The translations under genes were made by a program, and so were the position numbers. A stretch of 64,000 bases of DNA from Elusimicrobiota bacterium (GTDB lineage Bacteria > Elusimicrobiota > Elusimicrobia > UBA1565 > UBA9628), in assembly GCA_016182905.1 (NCBI GenBank), contig JACPFR010000005.1, positions 202,185 to 266,184 of the forward strand. The letters run 5' to 3'. Below, piece after piece: positions 37,898 to 64,000 of the stretch (position 1 is the first letter of the stretch; the number at the start of each line of letters is the position of its first letter). Under the pieces are notes generated by a model. That model had not been told where the DNA came from, did no database searches, and saw only the letters and a list, made by a program, of their open reading frames with translations.

Positions 37898-38455
37898 GTG
37901 GAAAAACGCACCATCCGCTTGAATCTCGACGTGAGCTTCGTCTACGGACCGCGCACCTGGCGCGTGCCGCTCGCGGCGATGCTGCTGCTGTGCGCGGTCG
38001 GCGACCTCAACTCCGAGAGCGTGACCCTCAGCACCTATTATCCCGCCCCTTCCGGCGTGTACACCCAGATGATCACCACCGGAGACACCTACCTCGCGCG
38101 CGACGGCGCCGGCACCCGCGTCGGTATCGGCACGACGACTCCGACCCAGAAGCTGTCGGTCGTGGGGAACGTCGACGTCTCGGCCGGCTACGTGAAGATC
38201 AGCTCGGTCGGCTGCGGCGTGGCCGACGTGACGCAGGGCGTGGTCTGCAGCGGCACGCAGTACGCGACCTTCACCCCGGGCTTCTACATCGAGGGCTGGT
38301 CGTACCAGAACCGCGGCGGCGCGGTCATCGCCGAGGCGGGCCCCGGCCAGACCACCACGCAGGTGCGCGCCCTCAACCCGACGACGGGCTCCGAGGACTG
38401 GATGACGCTCAAGAAGAACGACTCCTCCACGCGCATCTGGTGCTGCCCGCGCTAA
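37898..38455 (+). CDS. secreted or surface protein with STYYPAPSG and GIGTTTP motifs
   Basis: A 185-residue protein starting with GTG after a strong ribosome site. A hydrophobic stretch (VPLAAMLLLCAVGDL, about 29-43) looks like a signal anchor. It is followed by SVTLSTYYPAPSGVYTQM and then GTRVGIGTTTPTQKLSVVGN, a motif also seen in phage tail-fibre and adhesin stalks. The C-terminus is Ser/Thr/Gly-rich and ends CCPR. From memory, short proteins with STYYPAPSG are common in Elusimicrobia, where they look like minor pilin or surface-fibre components. No specific function can be given. It overlaps the next gene tail-to-tail by four bases. Confidence 0.65.
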   Translation: MEKRTIRLNLDVSFVYGPRTWRVPLAAMLLLCAVGDLNSESVTLSTYYPAPSGVYTQMITTGDTYLARDGAGTRVGIGTTTPTQKLSVVGNVDVSAGYVKISSVGCGVADVTQGVVCSGTQYATFTPGFYIEGWSYQNRGGAVIAEAGPGQTTTQVRALNPTTGSEDWMTLKKNDSSTRIWCCPR

Positions 38456-39381
38456 CGCGCGAGGACGCGCCGGATGATCTTCCTCGGGTCGCTCGCTTGG
38501 GCGACGAGCTCGGCCGGATCGTAGGCTCCGCCCATGTCCCACAGCCCGGCGCAGATCGAGGTCAGCGAGCACTTCCGGCACGCGGCGCCCTTGCCGTAGC
38601 GCCAGGCCCGCTCGCGGTAGTGCACGCGGGAATCGAGGAAATCCACGGCGCGCTGTTCGCCCTTCACGATGGCGCGGGTCTCGGTGGAGCAGTGCCCGAA
38701 CTCGCCCATGTAGCAGAGGGGGACCTTCTCCAGGCGGAAGGTGCGTCCGGTCCGTTCGAGGAAGCGCATGGCCAGGAGCAGCGAGCGCTTGGTGCTCCGC
38801 AAGGCGGGCACGGTCCCCCGGTCCGAGGCCACGCGCTCGACCAGCGGGTCCAGGTAGGTCCACGAGAAGTGCTTGAGATACGGGAAGCGCGCGCAGAGCC
38901 ACCGCGCGGTCTCGTGGATGTGGTCCGCGTTCTGGGCGCAGACGGTCTGATTGACGTCGACGCTCACCGCGCGCCGGCTCAGGCGCGCCAAAGTGCGCAC
39001 GATGTTCGCCAGGGACTCGGGGTTGCCCGTCAGATCGGCCTGCACCTCCTTGCGGTGGCTGTGCACGCTGACGTGCAGATGCGAAAGCCCCGCGTCGATG
39101 AGGCCGTCGAGGAAGGCCGGGTCCGAGGTGAGCTGGCCGTTGGTGATCAGGCGGCAGGGCATGCCCTTGCGCGCGGCGTAGGCGATCAGCTCCCGGAGGC
39201 CCTTGTACAGCGTGGGCTCGCCGCCGGTGAGGATGACGCCGTCGTAGCCCTTGCGGCGGTAGCCGTCGATGAGCCTCTTGCCCGCGGCGAGCGTGAGCGC
39301 GCGCTCGTTGACCGGGTTCGAGCAGAAGCGGCAGCGCTGGTTGCAGCGCCGCACGACCTGGATGTAGCCGAGGTTCGCCAT
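38452..39381 (-). CDS. radical SAM protein, divergent member of the HXS/rSAM cluster
   Basis: A 309-residue protein with C13, C17 and C20 (CNQRCRFC) at the very N-terminus, LTGGEPTLYKG, and a C-terminal auxiliary motif ACRKCSLTSICAGLW. The start at 39381 (MANLGYIQVV) is preferred over the ATG at 39414, which would put eleven unrelated residues first. It is clearly paralogous to the protein encoded at 56246-57187: both share the start, the CSNP after the SAM motif, HVSVHS, and PLC(Y/F)M(G/S)(E/D)FGH(C/F)STETR. It is transcribed away from the carbamoyltransferase fusion gene across a 44-base gap with a palindrome. Substrate unknown; a peptide or cofactor precursor is likely. Confidence 0.85.
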   Translation of the reverse strand: MANLGYIQVVRRCNQRCRFCSNPVNERALTLAAGKRLIDGYRRKGYDGVILTGGEPTLYKGLRELIAYAARKGMPCRLITNGQLTSDPAFLDGLIDAGLSHLHVSVHSHRKEVQADLTGNPESLANIVRTLARLSRRAVSVDVNQTVCAQNADHIHETARWLCARFPYLKHFSWTYLDPLVERVASDRGTVPALRSTKRSLLLAMRFLERTGRTFRLEKVPLCYMGEFGHCSTETRAIVKGEQRAVDFLDSRVHYRERAWRYGKGAACRKCSLTSICAGLWDMGGAYDPAELVAQASDPRKIIRRVLAR

Positions 39382-39403
39382 CGTCGGTTGTGTTTCTCGG
39401 CGC

Positions 39404-39415
39404 ATTGTATACAAT
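39404..39415. promoter_or_regulatory. 12-bp palindrome between divergent cluster genes
   Basis: ATTGTATACAAT is a perfect palindrome in the 44-base gap between the divergent rSAM gene and the carbamoyltransferase fusion gene. It is AT-rich in a GC-rich setting and includes TATAC, so it could serve as an operator, as -10 elements in both directions, or both. No other copy was noticed. Confidence 0.4.
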
Positions 39416-39425: not shown

Positions 39426-42400
39426 ATGATGCGGATTCCTCGGCCGGTGACGGACCACTTCGGCACCCGGCTCGAGCCGCGCGAGCTCGTCGCGGGCCTC
39501 GCCGCGCGGGGCCTGCGCCGCTTCATCCTCGTCCTCGAGGACGGCGGCGCGCTGCTGCGGACGGACGACGACCTCGACGGCGACGCCGCCTCGCGCGCGC
39601 TGACCTGGCTGCGCGGCGAGCTGTCGCCGCTGCTGCCGTGCCGGCTCGAGAGGGCGCCGGGCCTGAAGGCGGGCGGCGCGTTCGAGGACCGGCGCCGGCG
39701 GGCGCTCTGGACCGTCGCGCTCGGCGAGATCCTCGACGAGGCGGCCGACGCCGCGCGCGTGGAGGCGGACGTCTTGGCCCGCGCCGGAGCCGGCGCGGCC
39801 TTGATCACCTGGCCGCGTCCGGGCGGCGCGCGCGGGGTGCGCCCCGCGCGCATCGCCGCCGCGTCGAGCGAGCCGCGGGCTCTGGCCTGGCTGAAGGCCG
39901 CGCTGGACGGCGCCCGGGAGGCTCCGCTCCCCGAGGCGGACGTGCTCCTCGACGGCCTCGAGTGGGGCGTCGCGCGGCGGCCGACGATCGCGGCGGCTCC
40001 CGCGGCGGTCCCCGTCGTCGTCGACGCGGCGCGCTGCGACGCCTGCGGCCTGTGCGCCGAGGTGTGCCCGGCGCGCAGCCTGACGGGGAAGGGGACGTTC
40101 GCGCCGGGCGGCGTCGAGAGCTGCCTGCGCTGCTTCGACTGCGTCGAGGCCTGCCCCGTCGACGCGCTGCGTCCGGCGTACGGGCCCTCGAGCGCGACGA
40201 CCGGCGCGGCCCTCGCGGACCGTCCGGGCTGGCTGTCCCGCCTGCGCGGCGCGCCGGGGCCGGCCCTGCCCGCGCTCTTCCCGCCCTCGTATCTCCTGCC
40301 GAAGCCCGGGCCGAAGGGGGAGCCGAGATGGATCCTGGGCCTGGCCGTGACCACCATGCAGGAGCACGCGGCGGCCCTGCTCGAGGACGGAGCGGTCGCG
40401 GGCGCGGTGGAGGAGGAGCGCCTCTCGCGCGTGCGCCATCACGGGCGCGCCGGCGCGAGCCTCGCCGCCGACCCCACGCTGTGCCTCGAGGAGGTCCTGT
40501 GCCGCCGCGCGGCCGGGGCGCTGCTCTCCGAGCGCGGCCTCACGCTCGACGACATGGACGCCATCGCGGTCAACGGCATCCCCGCGCGCTACCGCCGCGC
40601 CTACCGCGCGCACGAGGACGGCGCTCCGATCCCGGTCCTGCGCGCGGGGCGGCTCGTCTTCGTGCCCCATCATCTCAGCCACGCGGCGTCCGCGTGGCGC
40701 GTCTCGGGACAGAAGGACTCCTGGGTGCTGACCGTCGACGGGCGCGGCGACCGCGAGACCGCAGCGGTGTTCCGCGGCGCGCGCGGGCGCCTGCGCCGCG
40801 TCTCGGAAATCCTCAGCCTCACCGACCGCTCCATCGGCGGCGTGTACGAGACCGTGACCCGCCTCCTCGGCTTCGGCGCGCACGGTCAGGGCAGCGTCAT
40901 GGCCCTGGCGTCCTTCGGCCGGCCGCGTCGCGGCTTGTCGCGGTTCCTCTCTCGTCGGGCGCGCGGCGTCTACTCCATCCACGAGCGCGGGCTCGCCGAG
41001 CGCTTCAAGGCGCTGGCCCGCGCGCCGGGCGCGCCGCTGAGGAAAGCCCACAAGGGCCTGGCGGCGTCGCTGCAGGCCGCGCTCGAGAAGACCGTGCTGG
41101 GCGTGCTCAAGGACGCCGGCGTGCCGCGCGGAGCGTCGCTATGCCTCGCCGGAGGCGTGGCCCTCAACTGCCGCTTGAACGAGCTGATCCGCCGGACGTT
41201 CCGGCCGCGCGCGCTGTTCGTCCAGCCCGCGGCCAACGACGCGGGCACGGCGCTCGGCGCGGCGCTCGAGGCGGCGGCCCTGCTCGGGGCGCCGCCGGCG
41301 CGGGAGCTCGCGGGCGCCGCCCTCGGCCCGGCCTTCGCGGAGGACGAGCTCCGCGCGGCCCTCGAGCGCGCCGGCCTCGCCTACGAGCGCTCCGCCTCCG
41401 TCGCCCGCGACGCCGCGGCGCTGCTGGCGGAGGGCGAGGTCGTGTGCTGGTTCCAGGGGCGCGCGGAGTTCGGGCCGCGCGCGCTCGGCTCGCGCAGCAT
41501 CCTCGCCGATCCCCGGCGCGCGGACATGCACGCGCGCGTCAACCGGATCAAGGACCGCGAGCCCTGGAGGCCCTTCGGGCCTTCCCTCCTCGCCGGCCGC
41601 GAGGCCGAGTGGTTCGAGGACGGCTTCGACTCGCGCTTCATGCTCTTCGCCCGGCGGCTGCGGCGCGGCAAGGCGGCGCTCGTGCCGGCCGTGGCGCACG
41701 TCGACGGGACGAGCCGCCCGCAGTCGGTCCACGCCGCGTCGAGCCCGCTCTACCGCGAGCTCATCGCGGAGTTCGACGCGCTGACCGGAGTGCCCATGGT
41801 GCTCAACACCTCCTTCAACCGCCGGGGAGAGCCGATCGTCTGCTCGCCCGCGGACGCCGTGGACGCCTTCCTCGGCATGCCCGAGGCCGGCGTCCTGGTC
41901 CTGGGGCCTTTCGTCGCCCGCCGCGCGGCCGCGCGCCGGGACGAGGGGGACGCGGCCCTCGCGGCCCGGCCGGGCGGCCGGCGCCTGATGCTGCGTCTGA
42001 CCGCGCGGGACGACGGCGACCCCGCCCACGCGCCCATCGCGGACATCGCCCATCTTCCCGACCGCTCCTTCGAGGACGCCGCGCGCGCCCTCTCCCGGGG
42101 GCGCGAGGCCGGGTGCTCCGAGCTCGTGATCATGAGGGGGGAGGCGACCCTCCGGCCGGACCTGCCGGAGCTCCTGCGCCGCGCCCGCGCGATAGGCTAC
42201 CGCTTCATCCAGCTCCAGACCAGCGGGCGGAGCCTGTCGCGCGCCGGGACCCGGGCGAGCCTCATGGGGCTGATCGACGCCTTCGAGATCACCGTGTTCG
42301 CGGCGGACGAGGCGACGCACGACGCGCTGACCGGCCGCCCCGGGTCGCTGCGCGAGACGCTCGCCGGCGCGCGCGCGGCCGTGACGGCGGAACGCGAGGT

Positions 42401-42866
42401 CGTGCTCGTCGTCCCGGCGGTCCGGAGGAACCTGTCGCGGCTGGTCCCGGTCGCGGAGCTGGCCGCGCGGCTCGGAGCGCGCCGCGTCCAGTTCTGCTTC
42501 CCGCGGCCGGTGGAGGCCGCAGCCGGCCTCCGGGCCGAGGCGCTGGCCCGCCTGGGCGACGCCTCGCCGGGGATCCGCGCGGCGCTGCGCGCCGCGGCCG
42601 CGGCGGGCGTCGCCGCCTCCACCGAAGGCGTCCCCTTCTGCCATCTCGACGCGGACCAGCGGACGGGACCGGACTCCGGCGGGGGCTGGGCGCGGTTCCG
42701 CGTCGACGATCTCCGCCGCCTCGAGGAGTCTCTCGATCCGCGGCGCGCCGGCTCCCGCCCGGAGGCGCCGGCGTGCCGCGGCTGCGCGGTCCGCGACGCC
42801 TGCCCGCGCACCTGGGCGCTCTACCTCGCCCTGTTCGGCTCCTCCGAACTGGCGCCCGTCGCATGA
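39426..42866 (+). CDS. fusion of ferredoxin, NodU-type carbamoyltransferase and degenerate radical SAM domain
   Basis: A 1,146-residue protein. Residues 1-200 are not recognised. Residues about 200-245 carry two 4Fe-4S groups (CDACGLCAEVCP, CLRCFDCVEACP). Residues about 300-830 are a NodU/CmcH/TobZ-type O-carbamoyltransferase: FVPHHLSHAASA holds the Kae1-like metal histidines, and FQGRAEFGPRALGSRSILADPR and VLNTSFNRRGEPI form the ATP and carbamoyl sites. Residues about 850-1,100 look like an rSAM barrel that has lost its cysteines (LRLTARDDGDP, then IMRGEATLRP where GGEP is expected). The tail CRGCAVRDAC...SSELAPV matches true rSAM proteins nearby. It could carbamoylate an intermediate of the cluster product. 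Confidence 0.82.
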   Translation: MMRIPRPVTDHFGTRLEPRELVAGLAARGLRRFILVLEDGGALLRTDDDLDGDAASRALTWLRGELSPLLPCRLERAPGLKAGGAFEDRRRRALWTVALGEILDEAADAARVEADVLARAGAGAALITWPRPGGARGVRPARIAAASSEPRALAWLKAALDGAREAPLPEADVLLDGLEWGVARRPTIAAAPAAVPVVVDAARCDACGLCAEVCPARSLTGKGTFAPGGVESCLRCFDCVEACPVDALRPAYGPSSATTGAALADRPGWLSRLRGAPGPALPALFPPSYLLPKPGPKGEPRWILGLAVTTMQEHAAALLEDGAVAGAVEEERLSRVRHHGRAGASLAADPTLCLEEVLCRRAAGALLSERGLTLDDMDAIAVNGIPARYRRAYRAHEDGAPIPVLRAGRLVFVPHHLSHAASAWRVSGQKDSWVLTVDGRGDRETAAVFRGARGRLRRVSEILSLTDRSIGGVYETVTRLLGFGAHGQGSVMALASFGRPRRGLSRFLSRRARGVYSIHERGLAERFKALARAPGAPLRKAHKGLAASLQAALEKTVLGVLKDAGVPRGASLCLAGGVALNCRLNELIRRTFRPRALFVQPAANDAGTALGAALEAAALLGAPPARELAGAALGPAFAEDELRAALERAGLAYERSASVARDAAALLAEGEVVCWFQGRAEFGPRALGSRSILADPRRADMHARVNRIKDREPWRPFGPSLLAGREAEWFEDGFDSRFMLFARRLRRGKAALVPAVAHVDGTSRPQSVHAASSPLYRELIAEFDALTGVPMVLNTSFNRRGEPIVCSPADAVDAFLGMPEAGVLVLGPFVARRAAARRDEGDAALAARPGGRRLMLRLTARDDGDPAHAPIADIAHLPDRSFEDAARALSRGREAGCSELVIMRGEATLRPDLPELLRRARAIGYRFIQLQTSGRSLSRAGTRASLMGLIDAFEITVFAADEATHDALTGRPGSLRETLAGARAAVTAEREVVLVVPAVRRNLSRLVPVAELAARLGARRVQFCFPRPVEAAAGLRAEALARLGDASPGIRAALRAAAAAGVAASTEGVPFCHLDADQRTGPDSGGGWARFRVDDLRRLEESLDPRRAGSRPEAPACRGCAVRDACPRTWALYLALFGSSELAPVA

Positions 42867-42910: not shown

Positions 42911-44155
42911 ATGATATCCCGAATCCTCCTCGCGTCTCTGTTCGCCGGGCCCGCGTACGCCGCCGCGCCTGAGACCGCTCCCGCCGCCGCCGCCGAGGCG
43001 AGCCAGAGGCTGTTCGCCCGCTGCTCCAAGGCGGATTTCGGCGTCGACGAGCTCCTGGCCGACGCCGCCCTCCGCTCGGACCTGGCGACCTGCTCCAGCG
43101 CCGAGATCCGCGATCTCCTGGACTACGCCGCGTGCCGGGACCTGCAGGGGGCGCCCGGCGGATGCGCGGCGCTCGGCGGCATCCGAGGGTGGGGAGCGCA
43201 GAGCGTCGCGGGCTGCCGCGACACCGCGCTGGACGACCGGTTCATCTTCCAGACCCTGCGCAACGGCGACGCCCTCGGCGCCTGCCGCGACCTGTTCAAG
43301 CTCGACGGCAAGTCGGGGCCCGCCGTCGACCGGGGCTGCGCCGCCGTGATCGCGGCGGTCCGCTCCGGAAACGCCGCGTCCTCCTGCGCCGCGCTCGCGC
43401 GAGAGCGGCTGCTCGAGGCGGGGGAGCGCTGCGAGGACCACATGATCCGGTGGGCCGGCGTCCCCGCGGACTGCGGCAGGATCAGCGACGCCGACGCACG
43501 CCATCTCTGCCGCGGGCGCGCGTCCCTGGCGGCCGGCGCGCGCAGCCCCGCCCAGTGCGCCGCGTCGCCCTCGTGCCAGGCGCTCGCGGCGAGGTCGCCG
43601 AAGGCGTGCGACGGCCTGAAGGCGCGCTTCACGCGCTCGCTGTGCGCCCGCGTCGCCGCGGAGGCCAAGGGCCTCGCCCGCGGGCAGGAGCTGCGGAGCC
43701 AGGCCGAGGCCGAGGCCAAGGCGAAGGCCGCGAAGGAGGCCGCGGCTCAGGCCGCGGCCGAGGCCGCTCGTCGGGCGAAGGCGGAGGCGGCCATCGCGAG
43801 CCTCAAGGCCGAAGCGGATTCCGCCGCGAGCCGGGCCGCGACCGATCTCGCCCGCGCCAAGGCCGAGAGCGAGGAAAAGGCGGCGAAGCTGGCGGCGGCC
43901 GAGTCCGCGAAGCACGCCAAGAACGCCGAGGCCGTCAAGGCCAGGGCCGAGGCGGAGGCCCGGAAGGCGCTCGCGGCCGAGCTCAAGGTCCGGAGCCAGC
44001 CCAAGCCTCAGTTCAAAAAGGGCGAACCGATGCAGGCCCAGTCGCCGGAGGTCACCGAGATGCTGAAGGCGCTGCAGGAAGGCCGGCCGATCCCGAAGCC
44101 CGCGCCGAAGCCGAAGAAGGCCGTTCCGGCGGAGGACGCTCCCTCCGCGCGATAA
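42911..44155 (+). CDS. secreted coiled-coil protein of unknown function
   Basis: A 414-residue protein with a signal peptide (MISRILLASLFAGPAYAA, about 1-18). Residues 35-240 contain many paired cysteines, suggesting a disulphide-rich periplasmic domain. Residues about 240-365 are an Ala/Glu/Lys-rich coiled coil (AEAEAKAKAAKEAAAQAAAE), and the C-terminus is Pro/Lys-rich (PIPKPAPKPKK). Elusimicrobia and related phyla encode many proteins of this type. No family recognised. It separates the carbamoyltransferase gene from the hxs genes on the same strand. Confidence 0.7.
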   Translation: MISRILLASLFAGPAYAAAPETAPAAAAEASQRLFARCSKADFGVDELLADAALRSDLATCSSAEIRDLLDYAACRDLQGAPGGCAALGGIRGWGAQSVAGCRDTALDDRFIFQTLRNGDALGACRDLFKLDGKSGPAVDRGCAAVIAAVRSGNAASSCAALARERLLEAGERCEDHMIRWAGVPADCGRISDADARHLCRGRASLAAGARSPAQCAASPSCQALAARSPKACDGLKARFTRSLCARVAAEAKGLARGQELRSQAEAEAKAKAAKEAAAQAAAEAARRAKAEAAIASLKAEADSAASRAATDLARAKAESEEKAAKLAAAESAKHAKNAEAVKARAEAEARKALAAELKVRSQPKPQFKKGEPMQAQSPEVTEMLKALQEGRPIPKPAPKPKKAVPAEDAPSAR

Positions 44156-44190: not shown

Positions 44191-44490
44191 GTGACCAGGA
44201 CCCGCTGCCAATCCTCGCTCCAGCCCGTCGACAGCGACGCCGCCCGCCTGCTCAAGCTCCTCGGAAGCCGGCGCCTGGCGGCCCTTCAGGCCGCCTTCGG
44301 CGGCCGCCGTCTGTGGATCCCCAAGGCCGGCAGCAACCTCCGCTGCTCCGTCTGCCGCTTCCGCGACGACTGCATCCGCTCCTGGCGGACCCAGGGCGTG
44401 AGCATCGTGAACATCGCCAAACGCCTGGGCGTGTCGCCGAAAACCGTGTACCGGGTCATCGGGATCGAGCGCGCCAAGGCGGCCGCGTGA
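44191..44490 (+). CDS. small Mor-like helix-turn-helix protein
   Basis: A 99-residue protein, GTG start. The N-terminal half includes LGSRRLAALQAAFGGRRLWIPKAG, which recalls the dimerisation strand of Mor/C transcription activators of Mu-like phages. The second half is a helix-turn-helix, GVSIVNIAKRLGVSPKTVYRVI. It lies 99 bases ahead of hxsD on the same strand, so it is the nearest candidate regulator of the HXS/rSAM operon. Alternatively it is a leftover phage-type regulator. Confidence 0.65.
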   Translation: MTRTRCQSSLQPVDSDAARLLKLLGSRRLAALQAAFGGRRLWIPKAGSNLRCSVCRFRDDCIRSWRTQGVSIVNIAKRLGVSPKTVYRVIGIERAKAAA

Positions 44491-44589: not shown

Positions 44590-45189
44590 ATGCCCACCAG
44601 CGAAAACGCCGAGATCGCCTTCGAACTGGACGAGAACCTCTATCCGCTCGAGGCCGTGCAGAACGCCGTCTACGTCTTCACCGACCGCGCGTACGTGCGC
44701 GTCGAGCGTTCCGAGCCGGAGCGGCTCAAGGTCGTCATGACGGTCAAGGCGGGCGCCGCGCCGTCGGCGCGCGTCGAGCTGAAGGGGGAGTTCGACAACG
44801 AGCTCATCCACCAGGTGCTGCGTCAGCGCATCTCGGCCTCCAACCAGAAGATCCGCGAGTTCATCGTGACCAAGGCGCTGGTCTCGGCCCAGCCCGCCGC
44901 GCTGGTGTCCTCGTCCTCCGCCCCGGCCGTCCCGGCCGCCGCGGACGCCGGCGCGCCGTGCCCGGAGTGCGTCGAGTCCGCGCCGCCGCCGCCGCCCGCG
45001 GCGCCTCAGATCGACGCCGCCCTGGAGAAGGAGATCGACCGCCTGCTGGCCGAGATCGAGAGCGGGGACGGCGCGGCCGATCCCCTCGGGGTGTCGGTGC
45101 CTTGGGAGGAGGCGTTCGGCGGCAAGGACAAGAAGGACGAGGCCCCGAAAGTCCCCAAGGCGAAGGCGGCCAAGGCGAAGCGCAAATGA
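44590..45189 (+). CDS. hxsD: His-Xaa-Ser system protein HxsD, with a C-terminal extension
   Basis: A 199-residue protein. The start MPTSENAEIAFELDENLY at 44590 follows GAGGAAAC. Residues about 8-100 match the HxsD family as I know it: ELDENLYPLEAVQNAVYVFTD, then LKGEFDNELIHQVLRQRI and NQKIREFIVTKAL. HxsD is a small protein found only in His-Xaa-Ser loci; its role is undefined, and it might help recognise or scaffold the precursor. Here it has an added Pro/Ala-rich tail with CPEC and a Lys-rich end, longer than the usual form. Its stop overlaps the hxsB start (ATGA). The in-frame ATG at 44515 would add 25 unlikely residues. Confidence 0.8.
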   Translation: MPTSENAEIAFELDENLYPLEAVQNAVYVFTDRAYVRVERSEPERLKVVMTVKAGAAPSARVELKGEFDNELIHQVLRQRISASNQKIREFIVTKALVSAQPAALVSSSSAPAVPAAADAGAPCPECVESAPPPPPAAPQIDAALEKEIDRLLAEIESGDGAADPLGVSVPWEEAFGGKDKKDEAPKVPKAKAAKAKRK

Positions 45190-46682
45190 GCGCTCCCGCC
45201 GCCGCAGGGATCCCCGCCCTCGACCCCGTCAAGACGGGCCCCTTCCGCTTCCGGAAGCTGGCCGGGGGGATGCTCGTCACCAACGACCTCGGACGCCACC
45301 AGCTCCTGGATCACGACAAGTTCCTGGCGTTCATCGCCGGGAAGCTCGAGGCCGGCGATCCGGCGTACGAGAAGCTCAAGGCCGACGGCTTCATCCGCGA
45401 CCAGATGGATTTCGACGCCATCGCCTCCGTCTGGGCGAAGCGCAACAAGTTCCTGTGGCAGGGCCCGACCCTCCACGTGATCGTCACGACCCTGCGCTGC
45501 AACCACCGCTGCCTGTACTGCCACGCCAGCGCGCTCGGCATGGCCGACGCCTCGACCGACATGACCGAGGAGACGGCGCGCAAGGTCGTCGACCGGATCT
45601 TCGAGAGCCCCAGCTCCGCCATCACCATCGAGTTCCAGGGCGGCGAGCCCCTGGCGAACTGGCCGGTGGTCAGATTCATCGCCGAGTACGCGGCCGAGAA
45701 GAACAAGACCGCGGGCAAGAGCCTGTGGCTGAACCTCGTCACGAACCTGAGCCTCATGGACGACGAGAAGATGAAGTGGCTGCTGGCCCGGGGCGTCAAC
45801 TTCTGCACGTCCATCGACGGCCCGGCGGCGCTCCACGACCGCAACCGCCCCTGGAGCTCCGGGGCCAGCCACGCCGAGGCGACGAAGTGGTTCCGCAAGA
45901 TCGACAAGAAGACGCGCGCCAAGATGTTCCGCATCGACGCGCTCCTGACGGTCACGCGGCTGTCGCTGAGCCAGCCCCGCGAGATCGTCGACGAGTACGC
46001 CTCGATCGGCGCGCGCGGCGTATTCCTCCGGCCTCTGAACCCCTACGGCATGGCGGTGGCCACCTGGAACAAGATCGGCTACGGCCCCGAGGAGTTCCTC
46101 GCCTTCTACGAGAAGGCCCTCGACCGCGTCCTCGAGCTCAACCGCGAGCGCTCCCTGCGCCGGCCGTTCTTCGAGCAGACCGCCCGGCTGTACCTCGCCA
46201 AGATCCTGACCGACGACGACCCCAACTACCTGGACCTGCGCTCCCCGTGCGGGGCGGGCATCGGCCAGATGGCGTACAACTTCGACGGCTCCGTCTTCAC
46301 CTGCGACGAGGGCCGCATGCTCAACCGCATGGGCGACGACACCTTCCTCATCGGCAAGGCCGGGGAGGGAACCTACGCCGAGTCGGCGGGCCATCCCGTC
46401 GTCCGGGCGCTGGCGGTGGCCTCCAACCTCGACAACCAGGTCGAGTGCTCGCAGTGCGCCTACAAGCCGTACTGCGGCGTCTGCCCCGTGCAGTGCTACA
46501 AGGAGCAGGGCGACATCACCGGCCGCATGCCGACGAACTCCCGCTGCAAGATCAGCATGGGCGTGCTCGACATCCTGTTCGACCGCCTGCGGGACAAGAG
46601 GAACGAGAAGATCTTCCGCTCCTGGCTCAAGGTCAGGAAGGGAGAGAGCGAGAAGTCCGCCGCGCTGTATCAACGAGGCTGA
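45186..46682 (+). CDS. hxsB: His-Xaa-Ser system radical SAM maturase HxsB
   Basis: A 498-residue rSAM/SPASM protein. The N-terminus FRFRKLAGGMLVTNDLGRHQLL is a strong HxsB marker. The SAM motif is C105, C109 and C112 (CNHRCLYC), followed by FQGGEPLANW. The C-terminal SPASM region holds CGAGIGQ, FTCDEGRML and CSQCAYKPYCGVCPVQC, giving two auxiliary 4Fe-4S clusters as in peptide-modifying maturases. It probably carries out the first radical modification of the His-Xaa-Ser repeat peptide encoded 12 bases downstream. The chemistry of HxsB on this substrate is not known from the sequence. Confidence 0.88.
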   Translation: MSAPAAAGIPALDPVKTGPFRFRKLAGGMLVTNDLGRHQLLDHDKFLAFIAGKLEAGDPAYEKLKADGFIRDQMDFDAIASVWAKRNKFLWQGPTLHVIVTTLRCNHRCLYCHASALGMADASTDMTEETARKVVDRIFESPSSAITIEFQGGEPLANWPVVRFIAEYAAEKNKTAGKSLWLNLVTNLSLMDDEKMKWLLARGVNFCTSIDGPAALHDRNRPWSSGASHAEATKWFRKIDKKTRAKMFRIDALLTVTRLSLSQPREIVDEYASIGARGVFLRPLNPYGMAVATWNKIGYGPEEFLAFYEKALDRVLELNRERSLRRPFFEQTARLYLAKILTDDDPNYLDLRSPCGAGIGQMAYNFDGSVFTCDEGRMLNRMGDDTFLIGKAGEGTYAESAGHPVVRALAVASNLDNQVECSQCAYKPYCGVCPVQCYKEQGDITGRMPTNSRCKISMGVLDILFDRLRDKRNEKIFRSWLKVRKGESEKSAALYQRG

Positions 46683-46694
46683 GAGGATCCCCCA

Positions 46695-56246: not shown

Positions 56247-57187
56247 TGGCCACCCTCGCCTACCTGCAGGTCGCGCGCATCTGCAATCAGAAATGCCTGT
56301 TCTGCTCCAACCCGGAGAACGGCCGCGTCATCTCCTGGAAGGAGGCGACGGACCTGGTGGACTCCTTCGCCGCGGAGAAGGCCGCGGGCGTGATCATCAC
56401 CGGTGGGGAGCCGACCTTGTTCGACCGCCTTCCCGAGCTGGTGGCCTACGCCTTGAAGAAGGGCCTGCCCCCGCGCCTGATCACCAACGGGCAGCGCGTG
56501 TGCCGGCCCGACTACCTCAAGGCCCTCGTCGACTCCGGGCTGGACCACATGCACGTCTCGGTCCACTCGGCGAAGCCGGAGGTCCAGGGCGAGCTGACCG
56601 GCAACAAGAACTCCCTGCCCAACATCCTGCGCGCGCTCGAGAACGCCGGCAAGCTCGGCGTGCGGGTGGACATCAACACCGTCATCAACGCCCGCAACGC
56701 GGACCACCTCTCGCAGACGCCGCGCTTCCTCTGCGAGCGCTTCCCGTTCCTCCATCACTTCGTCTGGAACAACCTCGACCCGCTGATGAACGCCGCGTCG
56801 CTGAACCCGCAGCTCGTGCCGAAGCTGCGCTCCTTCGAGGTGGAGCTGCACCGCGCGATGACCTGGCTCGCGAAGGCGGGCAGATCGTTCCGCGTCGAGC
56901 GCGTGCCGCTGTGCTTCATGTCCGACTTCGGGCACTTCTCCACGGAGACGCGCAAGTTCATCAAGGACGAGGGCCGCGACATCTATTTCCTCGACGAGAA
57001 GGGGCGCAGGCGGCAGGACAAGAGCTCCTGGAGCTACGGCAAGGCGCCGCGCTGCAAGGAGTGCTCGGTCGAGCGGATCTGCGCCGGGCTGTACCAGATG
57101 GACGTGTACTACTCCTCGGAGGAGCTGTGCCCCATCCTGACGCCGGCGCAGGCGGTCGTCGACAAGGTCCGGGCGGAGGCGTCATGA
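56246..57187 (+). CDS. radical SAM protein, paralogue of the divergent gene at 38452-39381
   Basis: A 313-residue protein. SAM site C13, C17 and C20 (CNQKCLFC), ITGGEPTLFDRL and HMHVSVHSAKPEVQGE. PLCFMSDFGHFSTETRKF and the tail CKECSVERICAGLYQM are shared with the protein encoded at 38452-39381, about 17 kb away and on the opposite strand. The start shares one base with the previous stop (TGATG). HHFVWNNLDP after the central strands corresponds to HFSWTYLDP in the paralogue. The duplication suggests two related substrates or a heterodimer. Confidence 0.84.
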   Translation: MATLAYLQVARICNQKCLFCSNPENGRVISWKEATDLVDSFAAEKAAGVIITGGEPTLFDRLPELVAYALKKGLPPRLITNGQRVCRPDYLKALVDSGLDHMHVSVHSAKPEVQGELTGNKNSLPNILRALENAGKLGVRVDINTVINARNADHLSQTPRFLCERFPFLHHFVWNNLDPLMNAASLNPQLVPKLRSFEVELHRAMTWLAKAGRSFRVERVPLCFMSDFGHFSTETRKFIKDEGRDIYFLDEKGRRRQDKSSWSYGKAPRCKECSVERICAGLYQMDVYYSSEELCPILTPAQAVVDKVRAEAS

Positions 57188-58089
57188 GCGATCGCGTCGA
57201 CCTGAAGGTCGGGTTCCGCTGCAACAACTACTGCCACTTCTGCGTGCAGGGCGACAAGCGCGAGCGCCTGCCGACGAAGCCCGAGGACGAGCTGGTCAAG
57301 TCCCTGGCGGAGGGACGGGAGGGGGGTGCTGTCGGCGTCGTGATCACCGGCGGCGAGCCCACCTTGCACAAGCAGATCGTCAAGATCGCGAGGACGGCCC
57401 GCTCCCTCGGCTACACTTTGATCCAAGTGCAGAGCAACGGCCGCACCTTCTGCTACGAGGACTTCTGCAAGCGCCTCATCGACGCCGGCGTCAACGAGTT
57501 CGGGCCCTCGCTGCACGGCTCGACGGCGAAGGTCCACGACTACCTGACCGGCGCGCCCGGGGCGTTCATGCAGACGGTGTCCGGGATGCGCAACCTCAAG
57601 AGGCTCGGGCAGCGGGTGATCACCAACTCGGTGATCACGAAGGCCAACTACCGCGACCTGCCCGGCCTCGCGCGCCTGCTCGTCGCGCTCGGCGTCGACC
57701 AGTTCCAGTTCGCCTTCATGCACATGAGCGGCCGCGCCGGCGAGAACAAAGAGTGGCTGACCGCGCGCAAGAGCCTCATCGAGCCGTACGTCAAGCGCGC
57801 GCTCGACGTGGGCATCAAGGCGGGCCGGACCGTCATGACCGAGGCCATCCCGTACTGCCTGATGGGAGGCTACGAGAAGTACGTGGCCGAGCAGATCATC
57901 CCGCGTACGCGCATCTACGACGCCGACTGCGTGATCCCCGACTACACGCGCACGCGCATCGACGAGGGCAAGAGCCGCGGGCCGCGGTGCGCCGAGTGCG
58001 ACTGGCACTCCCGGTGCGAGGGCCCGTGGCGGGAGTACCCCGAGCTGTTCGGCTGGGACGAGTTCGTGCCGGTGAGGAAGGCCCCGTGA
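57184..58089 (+). CDS. radical SAM protein, possibly HxsC-like
   Basis: A 301-residue protein. SAM site C13, C17 and C20 (CNNYCHFC), ITGGEPTLHKQIV, VQSNGRTFCYEDF, then LHGSTAKVHDYLTGAPGAFMQTV and MRNLKRLGQRV. The HD...GAF..T..G..NLK..GQ pattern is reminiscent of HxsC, the second rSAM maturase of HXS loci, but I cannot confirm this without a profile search. The tail CAECDWHSRCEGPW has the cluster's auxiliary motif. It is coupled to both neighbours by 4-base overlaps. Confidence 0.8.
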   Translation: MSDRVDLKVGFRCNNYCHFCVQGDKRERLPTKPEDELVKSLAEGREGGAVGVVITGGEPTLHKQIVKIARTARSLGYTLIQVQSNGRTFCYEDFCKRLIDAGVNEFGPSLHGSTAKVHDYLTGAPGAFMQTVSGMRNLKRLGQRVITNSVITKANYRDLPGLARLLVALGVDQFQFAFMHMSGRAGENKEWLTARKSLIEPYVKRALDVGIKAGRTVMTEAIPYCLMGGYEKYVAEQIIPRTRIYDADCVIPDYTRTRIDEGKSRGPRCAECDWHSRCEGPWREYPELFGWDEFVPVRKAP

Positions 58090-58946
58090 GGAGCGAGCGC
58101 CTCCTCGTCCTCGTCCTCACCCGGCGCTGCGAGCGCCGCTGCGGGTATTGCCCGCAGTCCTTCGACGAGGCCGACATGTCCGAGGGCGTCCTCGACGCGG
58201 CGCTGGACGGCTTCCTGCCGCGGCTCGCCTCGCCGCCGCGGGTCAAGCTGTTCGGCGGCGAGCCCCTGCTGCGGCCGGACCTGGTGACGCGCGCCCTCGA
58301 GCGGATCGCGGCCCTGGCTCCGGGGACCGCGGTGGAGCTGCCCACGCACGGCAAGGGGCTTCCCGCGGTGGAGGCGCTGCTGGCCAGGCGCCCCGAGGTG
58401 GAGGTCTTCGTCAGCCGGGCCGATCCCCTGGCCGCCCGCCTGCCGGGCGTCGCGCACAACTTCCTGATCCCGCCCGGCGAGTCCCCGGCGGCGGCCGTGC
58501 GGCGACTGGCGCTGGCGCGCAAGCGCGGCTACTCGCGCTTCAATTTCCTGCCCGCCTACTTCGTGCCGTGGACGCCCGCGCAGGTCGAGGGGCTGACGCG
58601 GTGCTTCGCCGCGATCCGGCTGGCGCTGTCGCGGTGGGCCGGGGCGGGCCGGCCCGTCGAGGTGCTCAACCTCGCTCGGACCGGGACGACGCCGCTGTAC
58701 AACGACGGGCTGGTGGTGGACACGGACGGAGAGGTGTACAACTCGAACTTGATCCTCGCCGCGGCCGTCCGTCCCCATCGCCGGCGCCTGCGCCTGGGCG
58801 ACGTGCTCAACGCCGAACGGCTGGCCTCTCGTCCCGCCGCCGACGCGGCGCAGGTCCTGGCCGACGCGTTCCCGCCCGGCGTCCTGGCGTCCACGCGCTC
58901 GGTCGACGCGGAGCTGACGGCGTTCTGCCGGGCTCTCGGCTCCTAG
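58086..58946 (+). CDS. short radical SAM protein of the VDTDG subgroup (last gene of the run)
   Basis: A 286-residue protein, GTG start overlapping the previous stop. SAM site C15, C19 and C22 (CERRCGYC), then KLFGGEPLLRPDL. VSRADPLAARLPG replaces the middle strands, and TPLYNDGLVVDTDGEVYNSN carries the VDTDG block. It lacks the C-terminal CxxCx5C motif and any SPASM domain. Its TAG stop overlaps tail-to-tail with the TAG of the convergent nitrogenase-like gene. Function unknown. Confidence 0.8.
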   Translation: MRSERLLVLVLTRRCERRCGYCPQSFDEADMSEGVLDAALDGFLPRLASPPRVKLFGGEPLLRPDLVTRALERIAALAPGTAVELPTHGKGLPAVEALLARRPEVEVFVSRADPLAARLPGVAHNFLIPPGESPAAAVRRLALARKRGYSRFNFLPAYFVPWTPAQVEGLTRCFAAIRLALSRWAGAGRPVEVLNLARTGTTPLYNDGLVVDTDGEVYNSNLILAAAVRPHRRRLRLGDVLNAERLASRPAADAAQVLADAFPPGVLASTRSVDAELTAFCRALGS

Positions 58947-60313
58947 CAGGAGGACCGGCGCGGAGACGCCGGAAACGCCGCGCCGGCGCCTTCGAACATC
59001 GGATAGCGCATGACCACGCCCCACGCGCCGATGTCCCGGTGCAAGGTCGCGTTGAGCGCCCGCTCGACGAACCGGAGGCAGCCGGCGAAGCCCAGGAAGG
59101 GCTGGCTCGACAGGGCGTGGTAGGCGTAGGAGGGATAACCGAGCTCGATGGCGGCCGCCCCGGTCCTCCCTTGCTGGAAGAAGCTGTTGCCGACGATGAT
59201 GTCGACCGGGCCGGCCTCGGCGAGCGCCGCGTCCCACTGAGCGGAGGTGGGCTGGCATAAAGGGCGTGGCAGGCCCGGGAACCTGTCGGCGAGCCCCCGG
59301 GGCATCTTGTCGGGACGGCTCATCAGGGCCGTGGCCGCCACCTCCCAGCCCAGGTCGTCGGCCAGCTGGGCGAGGCCGGCGAACAGGTAGGGATCGGCGG
59401 CCAGCGCCACGCGCTTGTGGAGCATCGCCTGCGGGACCACCCATTCCAGGCGCTTGAGGACCGGGGCCAGCTCCGCGGCGATGAGCGCCTCCGCGGCCTT
59501 CTTGGGCCTCTTGCAGGCCTCGGCGACGGCGCGGATCCAGTCCTCGGTGGGAAGGAGGCCGAACGGGAGCTCGAGCTCGACGGCCTTCACGCCCAGGCGG
59601 TCGGCCAGGACCTTCGCGGCCTTGCGCCCGTAGGGCAAGGACAGGATCGTCCCCGCGGCCTTGACGTCCGAGAGCTCCCCGTACGGGACGTTCCCGAGCC
59701 AGACCGACGCGAGCTCCATGCCCAATCCCGCCAGCAGGCGCCGCAGCTCCGCGATGTTGGCGACGTGATCCTGCTCGTTGCGGTCCATCATGTAGCCCAC
59801 GATGGCGACTTTTTTCGGGTCCGGCGCGGCGTCCTTCAGGTCGACGGCGCGCGCGAGCGCCTCGAGCGCGTCGGCGTAGCCGTCGAGCCAGTCTCCCGAC
59901 AGCGCGTCGGAGGGCAGGGGCAGGACCGGCTTGGCGCTGTCCTTCGCGGCGCCGCGGACGATGCGCCGGTAATCCACGGCCAGGATCGAGCAGCAGGGCC
60001 GAGGCGACAGGAAGAGGACCTTCAAGGCGGGCCGGGCCAAGAGCTCCTTGGCGACGCGGGCGATATCGGGCTCGCGGTCCTTGACCAGGTCGGCGATGTC
60101 CTTGTAGGAGTGCTCGAGGCGGTGGGCGGTCCCGCCCGCGGCGTCGAGCAAGGTGGACGCCAGGTCGTGGTTCCCGTAGACGAACTCGGCCTTGGTCATC
60201 GAGCATTCGGCCCCGTCGATGAGGAGGCAGGAGTCCGGCACGGCGTTGACGGCCAGCAGCGCGCCGACGAGGTAGGGGGCGTTGAGGCGCTGGGTATCGT
60301 CATTGCACGCCAT
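58943..60313 (-). CDS. nitrogenase component 1-like protein, NifK/NifN/BchB type
   Basis: A 456-residue protein with the alternating beta-alpha pattern of nitrogenase component 1 domains. VPDSCLLIDGAEC (C37) and LFLSPRPCCSI (C107, C108) lie about where NifK and BchB place cluster cysteines. KKVAIVGYMMDRNEQDHVANIAELRRLLAGLGMEL corresponds to the second Rossmann domain, and PVDIIVGNSFFQQG to the third. It is too short and too different to be an N2-fixing NifK, and no nifB, nifE or nifN lies nearby. It is encoded directly after the NifH-D fusion with a 14-base overlap, so the two products probably form one complex. Confidence 0.75.
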   Translation of the reverse strand: MACNDDTQRLNAPYLVGALLAVNAVPDSCLLIDGAECSMTKAEFVYGNHDLASTLLDAAGGTAHRLEHSYKDIADLVKDREPDIARVAKELLARPALKVLFLSPRPCCSILAVDYRRIVRGAAKDSAKPVLPLPSDALSGDWLDGYADALEALARAVDLKDAAPDPKKVAIVGYMMDRNEQDHVANIAELRRLLAGLGMELASVWLGNVPYGELSDVKAAGTILSLPYGRKAAKVLADRLGVKAVELELPFGLLPTEDWIRAVAEACKRPKKAAEALIAAELAPVLKRLEWVVPQAMLHKRVALAADPYLFAGLAQLADDLGWEVAATALMSRPDKMPRGLADRFPGLPRPLCQPTSAQWDAALAEAGPVDIIVGNSFFQQGRTGAAAIELGYPSYAYHALSSQPFLGFAGCLRFVERALNATLHRDIGAWGVVMRYPMFEGAGAAFPASPRRSSC

Positions 60314-62924
60314 GGTGCCTCCACCGAGTCTCGTAGCGCCGGTGGAACGGAAGCCGGCAGATCCGCAGCAGGCGCCGCAAAGTGCGGACGGCCCCGTCGA
60401 AGCCGGGCTCGAAGGCCGCGCGGGAGAAGCGGCTCTTCCCGTTCCGGAGCAGGCGCCGGTCGTGGCAGACGTCGCTGTAGACCGCGGAGAAATCGCCCTC
60501 GGACAGGAGGCGGTCGAGCTCCTCCGGCGTGTTGAAGCGCTTCACCCCGGGGACGGCCGGCCGGGACGAGGGCGAGGGCGACCAGAGCAGCAGCTCGACG
60601 CCGAACCCCATCTCCCGGACCATCGGCAGGAGGGGAAGGCCTCCCAGGGAGCGTCCGTCCGACAAGGCCGCGGCGTCCGCCTCCGGGATGACGAACGCGA
60701 GGCGATGGCGGGCCGCGCTCGCGCGCAAGGCCCGCCACGTCCGGCGCAGCCCGCGGTAGCGCTCGCCGAAGGCCTCCTCGAACCTCTCCGGACGGCCCGC
60801 GGCGGCCGCGACGGCCTTGAGCCAATTCCGGGTCCCGAGGAGGCCGTAGGGGGACTCCGGCGAGATGAACTTCAGCCCCGGTCCCTTGGCGAGCTCGGCG
60901 AAGATCACGCCGTATTCCGAGCGGGGGGACAGGACCTGCAGGCCCGACTCGCGCAGCTTCACGAGGCTCGTGTAGGTCCAGCCGGGGAGGATGCTCTGGC
61001 CGACCTCGAGGCCCAGCTCCGCGACGAGCCCGGCCAGCTCGGCGCGCGGGCGGCCGCTCGGGAAGCCGATGAGATCGACCTTGTTCGGATCGGAGGCCGT
61101 CTCGAGGTAGCGCGGGCTGGAGAAGGCCTGGGCGATGGCGGTCTTCAGGATCGCGATCTCGGGGTTCAGGGCCGTCGCGGCGGCGATGGCGAAATCGTAT
61201 TTGCGGCGCATCCGCTCCAGGACCTTGGAGACGTCGTCGCCGATGACCGCGGGCACGCAATAGGACCGGATGACGAGCAGGTCGGGCTTGGGATTGCGCC
61301 GCAGGAAATCCTCGACCATCGCCTCCAGCCGCTCGACCCCGCCGCCGCGGATGACGTCCTCGAGGCCGGAGTCGGTGCTGAGCTGCGCGACGCGGGGGCC
61401 GTCGTTGCCCTCCCGCAAAGTCCCCTCGTTGTGCTTGCGCTCCCAGAACCCGAACGGCCCGGAGAGGAAGACGAACCAGCACTCCCAGTCGCCGTGGTGG
61501 ACGAACAGCGCCCCCTGCGGGAACCCGCCGACCGCGGAGGTCTCGTCGAGGAAGAACTGCACGGACTGGTCGGGCGCCGCCGCGGTCCCGCCCGCGCCGT
61601 CCGGCCACGCCTGAGGCGGGCCGCCGTCCCCCGGCCGGGCGCGGCCGTTCCCGGCGCCGGCCGGCGCGGAGACCGCGCCGACGGCGCCCGGATCGCGCTC
61701 CAGGACGCGCTGGAGAGTCCGCAACGGCACCAGGCCCAGGCGCGACGCGGTCCGGCGCAGGAGGCTCTCCGCCGCGGGGGTCGGGTTGCCGGCCCCCTGG
61801 AAGCAGAGGCCGAAATTCGGCGTCTTGATGAACGTCCCCTCGATCTCCGTCGGCTTGAGGACGACGACGAGCTCGGACTTGTCTTCCCCCTTGACCCCGA
61901 GGCCGATGCAGCCGTCGGGCGAAAGGAAAGCGGACTCCAGCCGCCAGCGATCCTCGAGCTTGAGCAGCTTCGAGAAGGATTCCAGCGAGCGCGGGCCGCC
62001 GACCCGCCTCGCCTGGGCCTTCTCCCGTTCCGGACGTCTCTCCGTCTTCGCGGGCGCGGCGGCGCCGCTTCCGGCCTGGGCGCGCATCGGGGGCGAACGG
62101 AACTGCCGCAGCGAGAGCTCCGTGAAAAGGCGGTCGTCCATCGGCGTGGGCGCCCCGATCTCCCCGGGCGCGACGGCCGCCACCGCCGCGGCGAGGTCCT
62201 TGAAGACCCGGACGAGGCCCGAGCCGGGATCGTGCTCGATCAGGGTCTTCCTCAGGTACTCGGCCTCGCGCACGATGGGGTCGCGGGGGACGAAGCCCAG
62301 GATGCGCGTGTTCAGCAGGCGCGCGAAGCGCTCCAGCATCTCGCGGTCCACCTCGGGGTCGCGCATGTTGACGATCAGGCCGCCGAGGACCGCTCCGTTG
62401 GCGGTATAGGTCCGCACCGCCTTGGCGATGTTGTTGGCCGCGTACAGCGCGGCCATCTCCTCGGAGGCGACGATGAAGATCTTGTCGGCGAAGCCCTGCC
62501 GCAGCGGCGCGGCGAAGCCGCCGCAGACGACGTCGCCGAGGATGTCGAAGATCACCGTGTCGTACTTCGCCGGGCTCATGAGGTCGAGCCGCTCCAGGGT
62601 CTCCAGGAGCTGGTTGATGCCGTAGCCGGCGCAGCCCAGCCCCGGCTCGGGGCCGCCGGCCTCGACGCAGTCGATGCCGAACTTGCCCTTGGTCAGGACC
62701 TCGGCCGCGGTGAGCGAGGTGAAATGCGAGGCCTGATGGCGCTCCTGGAAGGTGAGGATCGAGGCGTCCTCGGTGAGGGCCAAAGTGGAGTCGTGCTTCG
62801 GGTCGCAGCCGATGTGCAGGATCTTCCTTCCTTCGGACGCGAGGATCGCGCTGAGGTTGGCCGAGATCGTCGATTTCCCGATTCCGCCCTTGCCGAAGAA
62901 GGCGAGCTTCTCCATGACCGCCAT
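60300..62924 (-). CDS. fusion of a NifH/BchL-type ATPase and a NifD-like component 1 subunit
   Basis: An 874-residue protein. Residues 1-280 are a NifH-like reductase: FFGKGGIGKST (P-loop, 11-19), GCDPKHDST, GLGCAGYG with C98 and DVVCGGFAAPL with C134, the two cysteines that hold the bridging 4Fe-4S cluster. A charged linker (about 285-330) leads to a component 1-like half. There C556 in SYCVPAVIGDD matches the third P-cluster cysteine region of NifD (CPxxxIGDD). Fusing the reductase to its partner is unlike any classical nitrogenase, protochlorophyllide or F430 system, where they are separate. The start at 62924 could also be 62915. Substrate unknown; no nitrogen-fixation genes are present. 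Confidence 0.82.
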   Translation of the reverse strand: MAVMEKLAFFGKGGIGKSTISANLSAILASEGRKILHIGCDPKHDSTLALTEDASILTFQERHQASHFTSLTAAEVLTKGKFGIDCVEAGGPEPGLGCAGYGINQLLETLERLDLMSPAKYDTVIFDILGDVVCGGFAAPLRQGFADKIFIVASEEMAALYAANNIAKAVRTYTANGAVLGGLIVNMRDPEVDREMLERFARLLNTRILGFVPRDPIVREAEYLRKTLIEHDPGSGLVRVFKDLAAAVAAVAPGEIGAPTPMDDRLFTELSLRQFRSPPMRAQAGSGAAAPAKTERRPEREKAQARRVGGPRSLESFSKLLKLEDRWRLESAFLSPDGCIGLGVKGEDKSELVVVLKPTEIEGTFIKTPNFGLCFQGAGNPTPAAESLLRRTASRLGLVPLRTLQRVLERDPGAVGAVSAPAGAGNGRARPGDGGPPQAWPDGAGGTAAAPDQSVQFFLDETSAVGGFPQGALFVHHGDWECWFVFLSGPFGFWERKHNEGTLREGNDGPRVAQLSTDSGLEDVIRGGGVERLEAMVEDFLRRNPKPDLLVIRSYCVPAVIGDDVSKVLERMRRKYDFAIAAATALNPEIAILKTAIAQAFSSPRYLETASDPNKVDLIGFPSGRPRAELAGLVAELGLEVGQSILPGWTYTSLVKLRESGLQVLSPRSEYGVIFAELAKGPGLKFISPESPYGLLGTRNWLKAVAAAAGRPERFEEAFGERYRGLRRTWRALRASAARHRLAFVIPEADAAALSDGRSLGGLPLLPMVREMGFGVELLLWSPSPSSRPAVPGVKRFNTPEELDRLLSEGDFSAVYSDVCHDRRLLRNGKSRFSRAAFEPGFDGAVRTLRRLLRICRLPFHRRYETRWRHHGVQ

Positions 62925-62977
62925 GCGAAGTATGATACGATATAAAACGTGATTTGTCGTCGACGGACGGTGGTCGG
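62925..62977. promoter_or_regulatory. divergent promoter between the nitrogenase-like operon and an rSAM gene
   Basis: A 53-base gap, AT-rich in its first third (GATACGATATAAAACG, 62935-62950), separates the divergent starts. TATAAA and, on the other strand, ATCGTATCATAC offer -10-like sequences. The narrow spacing implies joint control of both transcripts. Confidence 0.35.
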
Positions 62978-64000
62978 ATGAAGGCCCGCCCGGCGGACCT
63001 CTCGAAGCTGCGGTCGTCGGGCTCCGACGTCACGCTGATCGAGGAGCTCACCTGGCTGGACGGCGCCGCCGTCGCGGCGAGGCACCTCGAGGACACGATC
63101 ACGCTGCGCTGCCGCAACCGCTGCCTGTCCTGCCCGCAGCCGAAGATGCGCCGCGACATCCCCTGGAAGGTCGTCTCGAAGGGCCTGCAGGAGTACGCCC
63201 GGCGTCCGGACCGGCGAGTCGGCGAGATGGAGCTCGTGCTGACCGGGGGCGAGCCCTCGATGGCGAAGTCCTTCCTGGACATCGCGCGCCTGGGCCGGGA
63301 CCTGGGGTTCGGGGCGGTCTCGGTGATCTCGAGCTCGGAGAGCTACGCCGACGCGAGGTTCGCGCGCGCCGTCTACGACGCCGGCATCCGGCGCGTGCTG
63401 CTGTCGTTCCACTCGCACCGTCCGAAGGTCTACCACTTCTTCACCGGCACGCGCGGGCAGTACGACCGGGCCGTCCGCGGTTTTTCGAACTGCCTGAGCC
63501 TGCCGTTCGCGTCCGTGAGCTGCAACATGGTCGTCAATCGCCTGAACTACCGCGACGTGCCCGCGCACGCGGCGTTCTTGGCCGGCCTGGGGGCGGCGCC
63601 GACCGCGCGGGCGCCGCTGTCGCTCGTGCTGTCCGTCCTCGAGGAGAACCCGAAATGGGAGAACCTCTGCGTGCCCCATCGCGCGGCGGCGCCCTACATC
63701 CGCCGCGCCTGCGAGGAGGGCCGGCTCCCGATCCGGAGGTTCGCGGGGGATTGGACCATGCCGGTGTGCGTCGGAGGGCTGGGCGAGGCGTCGCCTTCCC
63801 TGGCCCCGCTCGCGCGCCGCGACTCCGCGACCTGGTACGCGCCGAGGGGCTGGACGCCGTCGGGCTCGCCGCCGCCGGAGGCCTTCCGCCGCGTCAAGGC
63901 CTCGGCCTGCCGCGGCTGCGCCATGGACCCCGTCTGCGCCGGCCTCGGCCGGACCTACGCCGGGAGGTTCGGGACCGGCGAGCTCGCGCCGGTGCCGAGG
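62978..64000 (+). CDS. radical SAM protein, 3' end cut by window edge
   Basis: A frame of 341 codons that is still open at the right edge, with start MKARPADLSK. SAM site C45, C49 and C52 (CRNRCLSC), VLTGGEPSMAKS, LLSFHSHRPKVYHFF and a C-terminal CRGCAMDPVCAGLGRTYAGRFGTGEL. The last block is the cluster's shared terminal motif, and APV follows it, so the protein is probably almost complete. It belongs to the short MoaA-like members with an N-terminal extension of about 40 residues. Its divergence from the nitrogenase-like genes suggests that the cluster continues beyond the window. Confidence 0.82.
   Translation, partial: MKARPADLSKLRSSGSDVTLIEELTWLDGAAVAARHLEDTITLRCRNRCLSCPQPKMRRDIPWKVVSKGLQEYARRPDRRVGEMELVLTGGEPSMAKSFLDIARLGRDLGFGAVSVISSSESYADARFARAVYDAGIRRVLLSFHSHRPKVYHFFTGTRGQYDRAVRGFSNCLSLPFASVSCNMVVNRLNYRDVPAHAAFLAGLGAAPTARAPLSLVLSVLEENPKWENLCVPHRAAAPYIRRACEEGRLPIRRFAGDWTMPVCVGGLGEASPSLAPLARRDSATWYAPRGWTPSGSPPPEAFRRVKASACRGCAMDPVCAGLGRTYAGRFGTGELAPVPR

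Follow-up and report, generated by a model that had tools for sequence, protein, structure and literature searches.

An extended His-Xaa-Ser peptide locus with radical-SAM and nitrogenase-like genes in an Elusimicrobiota genome

If genes for a His-Xaa-Ser (HXS) peptide, a dozen radical-SAM enzymes and a nitrogenase-like complex stand side by side in one bacterium, do they belong together, and what might the reductase act on? We addressed this question in a 64,000-nucleotide stretch of an Elusimicrobiota genome (hereafter the window; contig C5, positions 202185-266184). The genome measures 4 Mb in 63 contigs, is 97% complete and has 70.9% G+C; protein searches gave Elusimicrobia metagenome genomes as close relatives. 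Genes were called with a codon-based gene caller, so that start codons are predictions. Coordinates below are window positions on the + strand unless stated otherwise. A reading made from the sequence only had described a 25-kb locus at 38452-64000 that joins HxsD, HxsB, HxsA, 12 radical-SAM genes, a carbamoyltransferase fusion and a nitrogenase-like pair with almost no spacing. NCBIfam, Pfam and CX3CX2C motif matches recovered this whole gene set, and the spacing is indeed mostly -14 to +99 bases. The locus is real, but its limits were drawn too narrowly: the dense gene run begins at 37898 and continues past the window edge to 68341, where the contig ends, and further genes lie on a second contig. 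Upstream, at 23345-26150, the window holds genes whose products look like MoaA, MobA and MoeA of molybdenum cofactor synthesis, assigned by eye except for a radical-SAM match.

The core of the locus spans 44590-47257 and comprises HxsD (44590-45189; TIGR03976, 65 bits, cut-off 50), the radical SAM/SPASM maturase HxsB (45186-46682; TIGR03978, 505 bits, cut-off 370) and an HxsA4 precursor (46695-47257; NF038313, 106 bits, cut-off 55), which consists of a leader, a hydrophobic stretch and a (GSH)n repeat ending in GSHGQW. With three components over the NCBIfam cut-offs, the order D-B-A and a His-Xaa-Ser repeat after a conserved leader, the core matches the HxsA4/HxsB/HxsD subtype of the HXS system. 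It differs in being far larger, in its many HxsC-like proteins without any HxsC or HxsC4 over cut-off, and in the addition of B12-radical-SAM, carbamoyltransferase and nitrogenase-like genes. Since no protein reached the HxsC cut-off (TIGR03977, 268 bits; best match 110 bits, 57184-58089), the locus is, by its gene content, an HXS variant (A4/B/D) rather than a classical HxsABCD system.

The hxsA gene of the window contains a reading-frame slip near 47160, after which the open reading frame runs into the next gene, to 49106. We rejected a fusion of HxsA to a B12-radical-SAM protein: the slip within the (GSH)n repeat joins two genes, and in another frame the repeat goes on to GSHGQW and a stop codon at 47257, the ending that close relatives also have. 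In relatives of the same genus whose hxsA is complete at its end, the gene is intact, and the slip is either an assembly error in the repeat or a recent mutation. Nearly all fetched loci shared one HxsA architecture, in which a basic leader containing a SEE(G/A)K-like block is followed by a hydrophobic segment and a signal-peptidase-like stretch. The repeat that follows comprises tens of Gly-Ser-His units and ends in GQW, GAW, SY or RGGWC, that is, with an aromatic or Cys residue. The His-Ser-Gly repeat peptide is probably secreted.

The CX3CX2C motif occurs in 12 genes of the window, one of which carries two copies, and 6 of the 12 have a C-terminal CxxCx(n)CxG cluster motif in common, which is probably the shared motif noticed in the sequence-only reading. 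On the - strand, 38452-39381 encodes a radical SAM protein (PF04055) with an HxsC-like C-terminal cluster motif (69 bits to the HxsC model, cut-off 268). It is followed by a fusion of Fer4, NodU-type carbamoyltransferase and radical-SAM-like domains (39447-42866; Fer4, PF02543/PF16861), the last of which has lost its CX3CX2C motif, while four relatives keep it. Downstream of hxsA lies a B12-binding radical SAM protein (47235-49106; PF02310) whose ATG at 47235 overlaps the hxsA end and whose relatives are separate or differently fused genes. Then come a radical SAM protein with a PapB/HxsB-like domain (49103-50107; PF04055), another whose start we corrected to 50125 to take in CQLRCAYC (50125-51318), and a B12-binding radical SAM protein with a degenerate HxsC-like stretch that includes the cluster motif (51315-53459; PF02310, PF04055). 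A tandem protein with two CX3CX2C domains follows (53488-55317; PF04055 twice). Profile matches identified HxsC-like radical SAM proteins at 55314-56246, at 56246-57187 and at 62978-64000, the last running to 64045 beyond the window. The protein at 57184-58089 is closest to HxsC4 and HxsC, below both cut-offs (NF038332, 164 of 500 bits; TIGR03977, 110 of 268), and 58086-58946 encodes a divergent radical SAM protein recognized by its motif (CERRCGYC). In another Elusimicrobiota family (loci L075, L076, L079, L058 and L056), radical-SAM proteins form trios with a protein of the U32 peptidase family and an unassigned partner, close to HXS and nitrogenase-like genes.

Further proteins accompany the core. 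The island opens with a protein that matches no Pfam family and has a TYYPAPxGxY motif and a CC-containing C-terminus (37898-38455). Its family is represented only twice in the genome, once next to each of the two HXS loci, and was found in 12 fetched loci; the CC near the end is invariant, and the protein is probably membrane-anchored. Beside HxsD lies a cysteine-rich helical protein (42911-44155) that adjoins HxsD in many loci. In an alignment with 13 proteins from other loci it showed eight nearly invariant cysteines and one invariant one; its predicted structure is helical (pLDDT 83), a fold search against the PDB gave no significant match, and it is probably secreted. A small helix-turn-helix protein (44191-44490; PF13936) is possibly a regulator. 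Twelve loci share a polytopic membrane protein. A recurrent membrane protein of 400 residues was considered as a prepilin peptidase, for which there was no Pfam match. The TYYPAP/CC, cysteine-rich and polytopic membrane proteins are candidates for export or for a partner at the cell surface.

The nitrogenase-like pair is encoded on the - strand, opposite to the HXS run. It consists of a NifD-like component-1 subunit, D1 (58943-60313; PF00148, 145 bits), and a NifH domain fused to a second component-1 subunit, D2 (60300-62924; PF00142, 276 bits; PF00148, 61 bits). In the NifH domain, C98 and C134 were invariant in 20/20 sequences and the P-loop GKGGIGKST nearly so. Among 33 D1 sequences, Cys37 was present in 32 and Cys108 in 23, with His49, Asp50 and His399 invariant; D2 had Cys482 and Cys556 in 20/20. 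The FeMo-cofactor ligands of NifD were absent from D1: the Cys275 column reads Pro in 29/33 and Gly in 4/33, and the His442 position, judged by eye, reads Pro (PSY motif). Instead of six P-cluster cysteines, D1 and D2 together have about four conserved ones in or close to the corresponding positions, by sequence enough for about one [4Fe-4S] cluster between the two subunits but not for a P-cluster. The D1 model (pLDDT 83.5) matched structures of nitrogenase component 1, DPOR (BchB) and NifEN (NifN). All nif models scored below cut-off, as did those for DPOR, COR and CfbCD (BchN-type NF002768, 47/324 bits; BchL, 205/345; CfbC, 263/402). Since FeMo-cofactor ligands and most P-cluster cysteines are missing, the predicted function is that of an electron-delivering reductase and not of a nitrogen fixer. 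In a quick tree, D1 proteins of several phyla clustered together, apart from Elusimicrobiota Nif proteins, and HXS-linked Myxococcota-type D1 was nested within a set of Elusimicrobiota sequences; this position among Elusimicrobiota sequences suggests transfer.

Beyond the window, contig C5 carries another radical-SAM gene, a B12-radical-SAM fragment and a second D1/D2 pair. A 52.9-kb contig, C45, holds 11 more nitrogenase-like domains with about seven radical-SAM genes near them, in a stretch of ~35 kb (C45:17740-52893) that also includes several NifH genes and TPR proteins. C45 terminates in NifH and C5 in a D2 without NifH; in the relative G196 the closest counterpart of this D2 carries a fused NifH domain, and genes corresponding to those of C5 and of C45 share a single contig. 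From these contig ends and G196 we infer that C5 and C45 probably join into an island of ~65 kb. C45 also encodes a 1114-residue protein (C45:39032-42376) in which a cysteine-containing N-terminal part is fused to a D2 nitrogenase-like domain; a radical-SAM domain was considered for the N-terminal part, which matched no Pfam radical-SAM model. The second HXS locus of the genome (C10:105118-118907) has HxsB in two copies, an intact HxsA, several HxsD-like proteins, several radical-SAM genes and a TYYPAP/CC protein of its own, but no nitrogenase-like gene.

We then asked whether HXS and nitrogenase-like genes go together across genomes. HxsB exceeded its cut-off in 90/341 Elusimicrobiota genomes. 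The nitrogenase-like group, split from canonical and other Nif proteins by score, was present in 46 genomes, 44 of which had HxsB, versus 46 of the 295 genomes without the group (Fisher p ~1e-27; Fisher values throughout ignore shared ancestry). The two exceptions are G230, with a sub-cut-off HxsB match, and G224, with none. Within the window's own family the corresponding fractions were 19/21 and 9/22 (p 0.0007), and in an even sample (n=284) of the Myxococcota-type phylum to which G343 belongs, HxsB was found in 33/37 genomes with D1 versus 63/247 without (p ~8e-14). Nitrogenase-like genes that regularly occur without HXS, the outcome named beforehand as speaking against a link, were looked for and proved rare (2/46 and 4/37). 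Among genomes reached only via D1, 20/21 had HxsB over cut-off and the remaining one had two contig-edge fragments; in the D1-reached set, all non-Elusimicrobiota genomes but one had HxsB over cut-off.

Linkage was analysed on contigs. All 16 fetched Elusimicrobiota contigs with both gene sets carried them within 30 kb (shortest distance 1.4-26 kb; 11 within 10 kb), distances that are descriptive, as the contigs were picked partly because both were listed. Among the matches listed, at least 19/46 Elusimicrobiota genomes carry both within 30 kb, and random placement gave p values between 5e-6 and 0.04 according to the gene numbers assumed. The co-location described in the sequence-only reading recurs across genomes of several families. 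In a Myxococcota-type contig (G348:C149), nitrogenase-like and HXS genes are ~3 kb apart, with HxsD, HxsB and D1 within ~7.5 kb. When genome contigs were searched with the D1 alignment, relatives turned up that, going by record labels, belong to Myxococcota, Deltaproteobacteria, Spirochaetes, Bradymonadales and Bdellovibrio; none of these non-Elusimicrobiota matches had HXS within 10 kb. Taken together, the genome comparisons support that HXS and nitrogenase-like genes go together in at least two phyla.

The dependence is one-sided. HXS without nitrogenase-like genes is common (46/90 HxsB genomes in Elusimicrobiota), and because HXS so often occurs alone, the nitrogenase-like part is, as judged from gene distribution, an optional add-on to the HXS core. 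Likewise, the same (GSH)n peptide is encoded at the C10 locus and in genomes that lack nitrogenase-like genes, so that the peptide core can do without them. The earlier proposal of one pathway is partly supported: that the gene sets belong together is backed by co-occurrence in two phyla and repeated linkage, whereas a shared substrate is our inference.

Where the role of a nitrogenase-like enzyme has been established, it reduces N2, tetrapyrroles, C-S bonds or Ni-sirohydrochlorin. Nitrogenase paralogues beside radical-SAM genes were reportedly described in Elusimicrobia in 2020, together with Myxococcales loci, in an account that is not known to include HXS. A reduced tetrapyrrole product has reportedly been proposed for Elusimicrobia, and to our knowledge this large group has no substrate candidate beyond that tetrapyrrole guess. 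The group described here is very likely the same. The report to which the sequence-only reading alluded does exist, as judged from its title in a reference list (Meheust et al. 2020, ISME J 14:2907). Our literature search, of incomplete coverage, found no report linking HXS to the Elusimicrobia nitrogenase or radical-SAM genes. Two enzymes invite comparison. The isethionate reductase IsrBHDK of Rhodobacter capsulatus is a nitrogenase-like enzyme that requires a radical-SAM partner (PMC11423573). It shares with the present pair such a partner, the lack of FeMo-cofactor ligands and a reduced set of cluster cysteines, but IsrD and IsrK have 1 + 3 conserved Cys versus 1-2 + 2 here, and the enzyme belongs to sulfonate metabolism, in a single small operon without a peptide (PMC11423573). 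DPOR (BchLNB) has the same fold (TM-score 0.76-0.82 for D1 versus BchB), an Fe protein with a heterodimer and no FeMo-cofactor; unlike in DPOR, the family models were not reached and no chlorophyll genes were seen in the island.

As the best explanation, which we advance tentatively and with somewhat less than even confidence, the locus would encode an enlarged HXS system for peptide maturation, to which a nitrogenase-like reductase has been added that works on the peptide or on a molecule bound to it. HxsD would present the leader of HxsA4; HxsB and the other radical-SAM enzymes would put cross-links or methyl groups onto the repeat, the carbamoyltransferase would add carbamoyl groups, and the modified product would be exported. 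The NifH domain, with its ATP site and both cluster cysteines, would feed electrons to the D1-D2 heterodimer, which with about one [4Fe-4S] cluster and no FeMo-cofactor may carry out a difficult reduction, either of the modified peptide itself or of a small molecule or cofactor that the peptide binds. In a bolder proposal, which we consider possible, well short of even, the substrate of this ATP-driven reductase would be an exported poly-(Gly-Ser-His) peptide modified by radical-SAM enzymes, or a cofactor that this peptide holds.

Alternatively, the product of the nitrogenase-like and radical-SAM genes might be a small-molecule cofactor, such as a reduced tetrapyrrole, that is either independent of HXS or only carried or used by the HXS peptide. 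The resemblance of the D1 fold to DPOR BchB and NifN fits this, as do two genes on C45, one of the TP_methylase family (PF00590) and one for a HemN-like radical-SAM protein, and the weak similarity of the B12-radical-SAM proteins to BchE. However, TP_methylase and other tetrapyrrole genes are not recurrent across the fetched loci, whereas HxsA, HxsB and HxsD are; no DPOR, COR or Cfb model reached its cut-off; and the genome-level dependence on HXS would go unexplained unless the product is bound to HxsA. We regard this alternative as a serious one that is nevertheless doubtful.

It is unlikely that the two gene sets are separate neighbours, collected as oxygen-sensitive enzymes in the same lineages and islands through a shared lifestyle. 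The frequency of HXS without nitrogenase-like genes, the mostly large distances between the genes in other phyla and the opposite strand of the pair would agree with such a history. Yet the association is repeated in a second phylum and within one family, linkage recurs in several families, and the 10 Elusimicrobiota genomes with clearly stronger matches to canonical or other Nif all lacked HxsB over cut-off (alone p 0.07). A nitrogen-fixing or alternative nitrogenase is highly improbable, for despite intact NifH motifs and PF00148 and PF00142 matches, the FeMo-cofactor ligands are absent, the P-cluster cysteines incomplete and all nif model scores below cut-off.

Returning to a reductase added to HXS peptide maturation, the link in two phyla with one particular repeat peptide, itself probably secreted, provides a concrete substrate candidate and a testable system for the nitrogenase-like group, and the uncharacterised HXS peptides gain a new set of partner enzymes. 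If true, nitrogenase-type chemistry would take part in ribosomal peptide maturation in several phyla, with at least five reductase pairs in one genome; we know of no earlier use of such chemistry in this role. The island and the two-phylum association thus suggest a new kind of peptide-modification chemistry.
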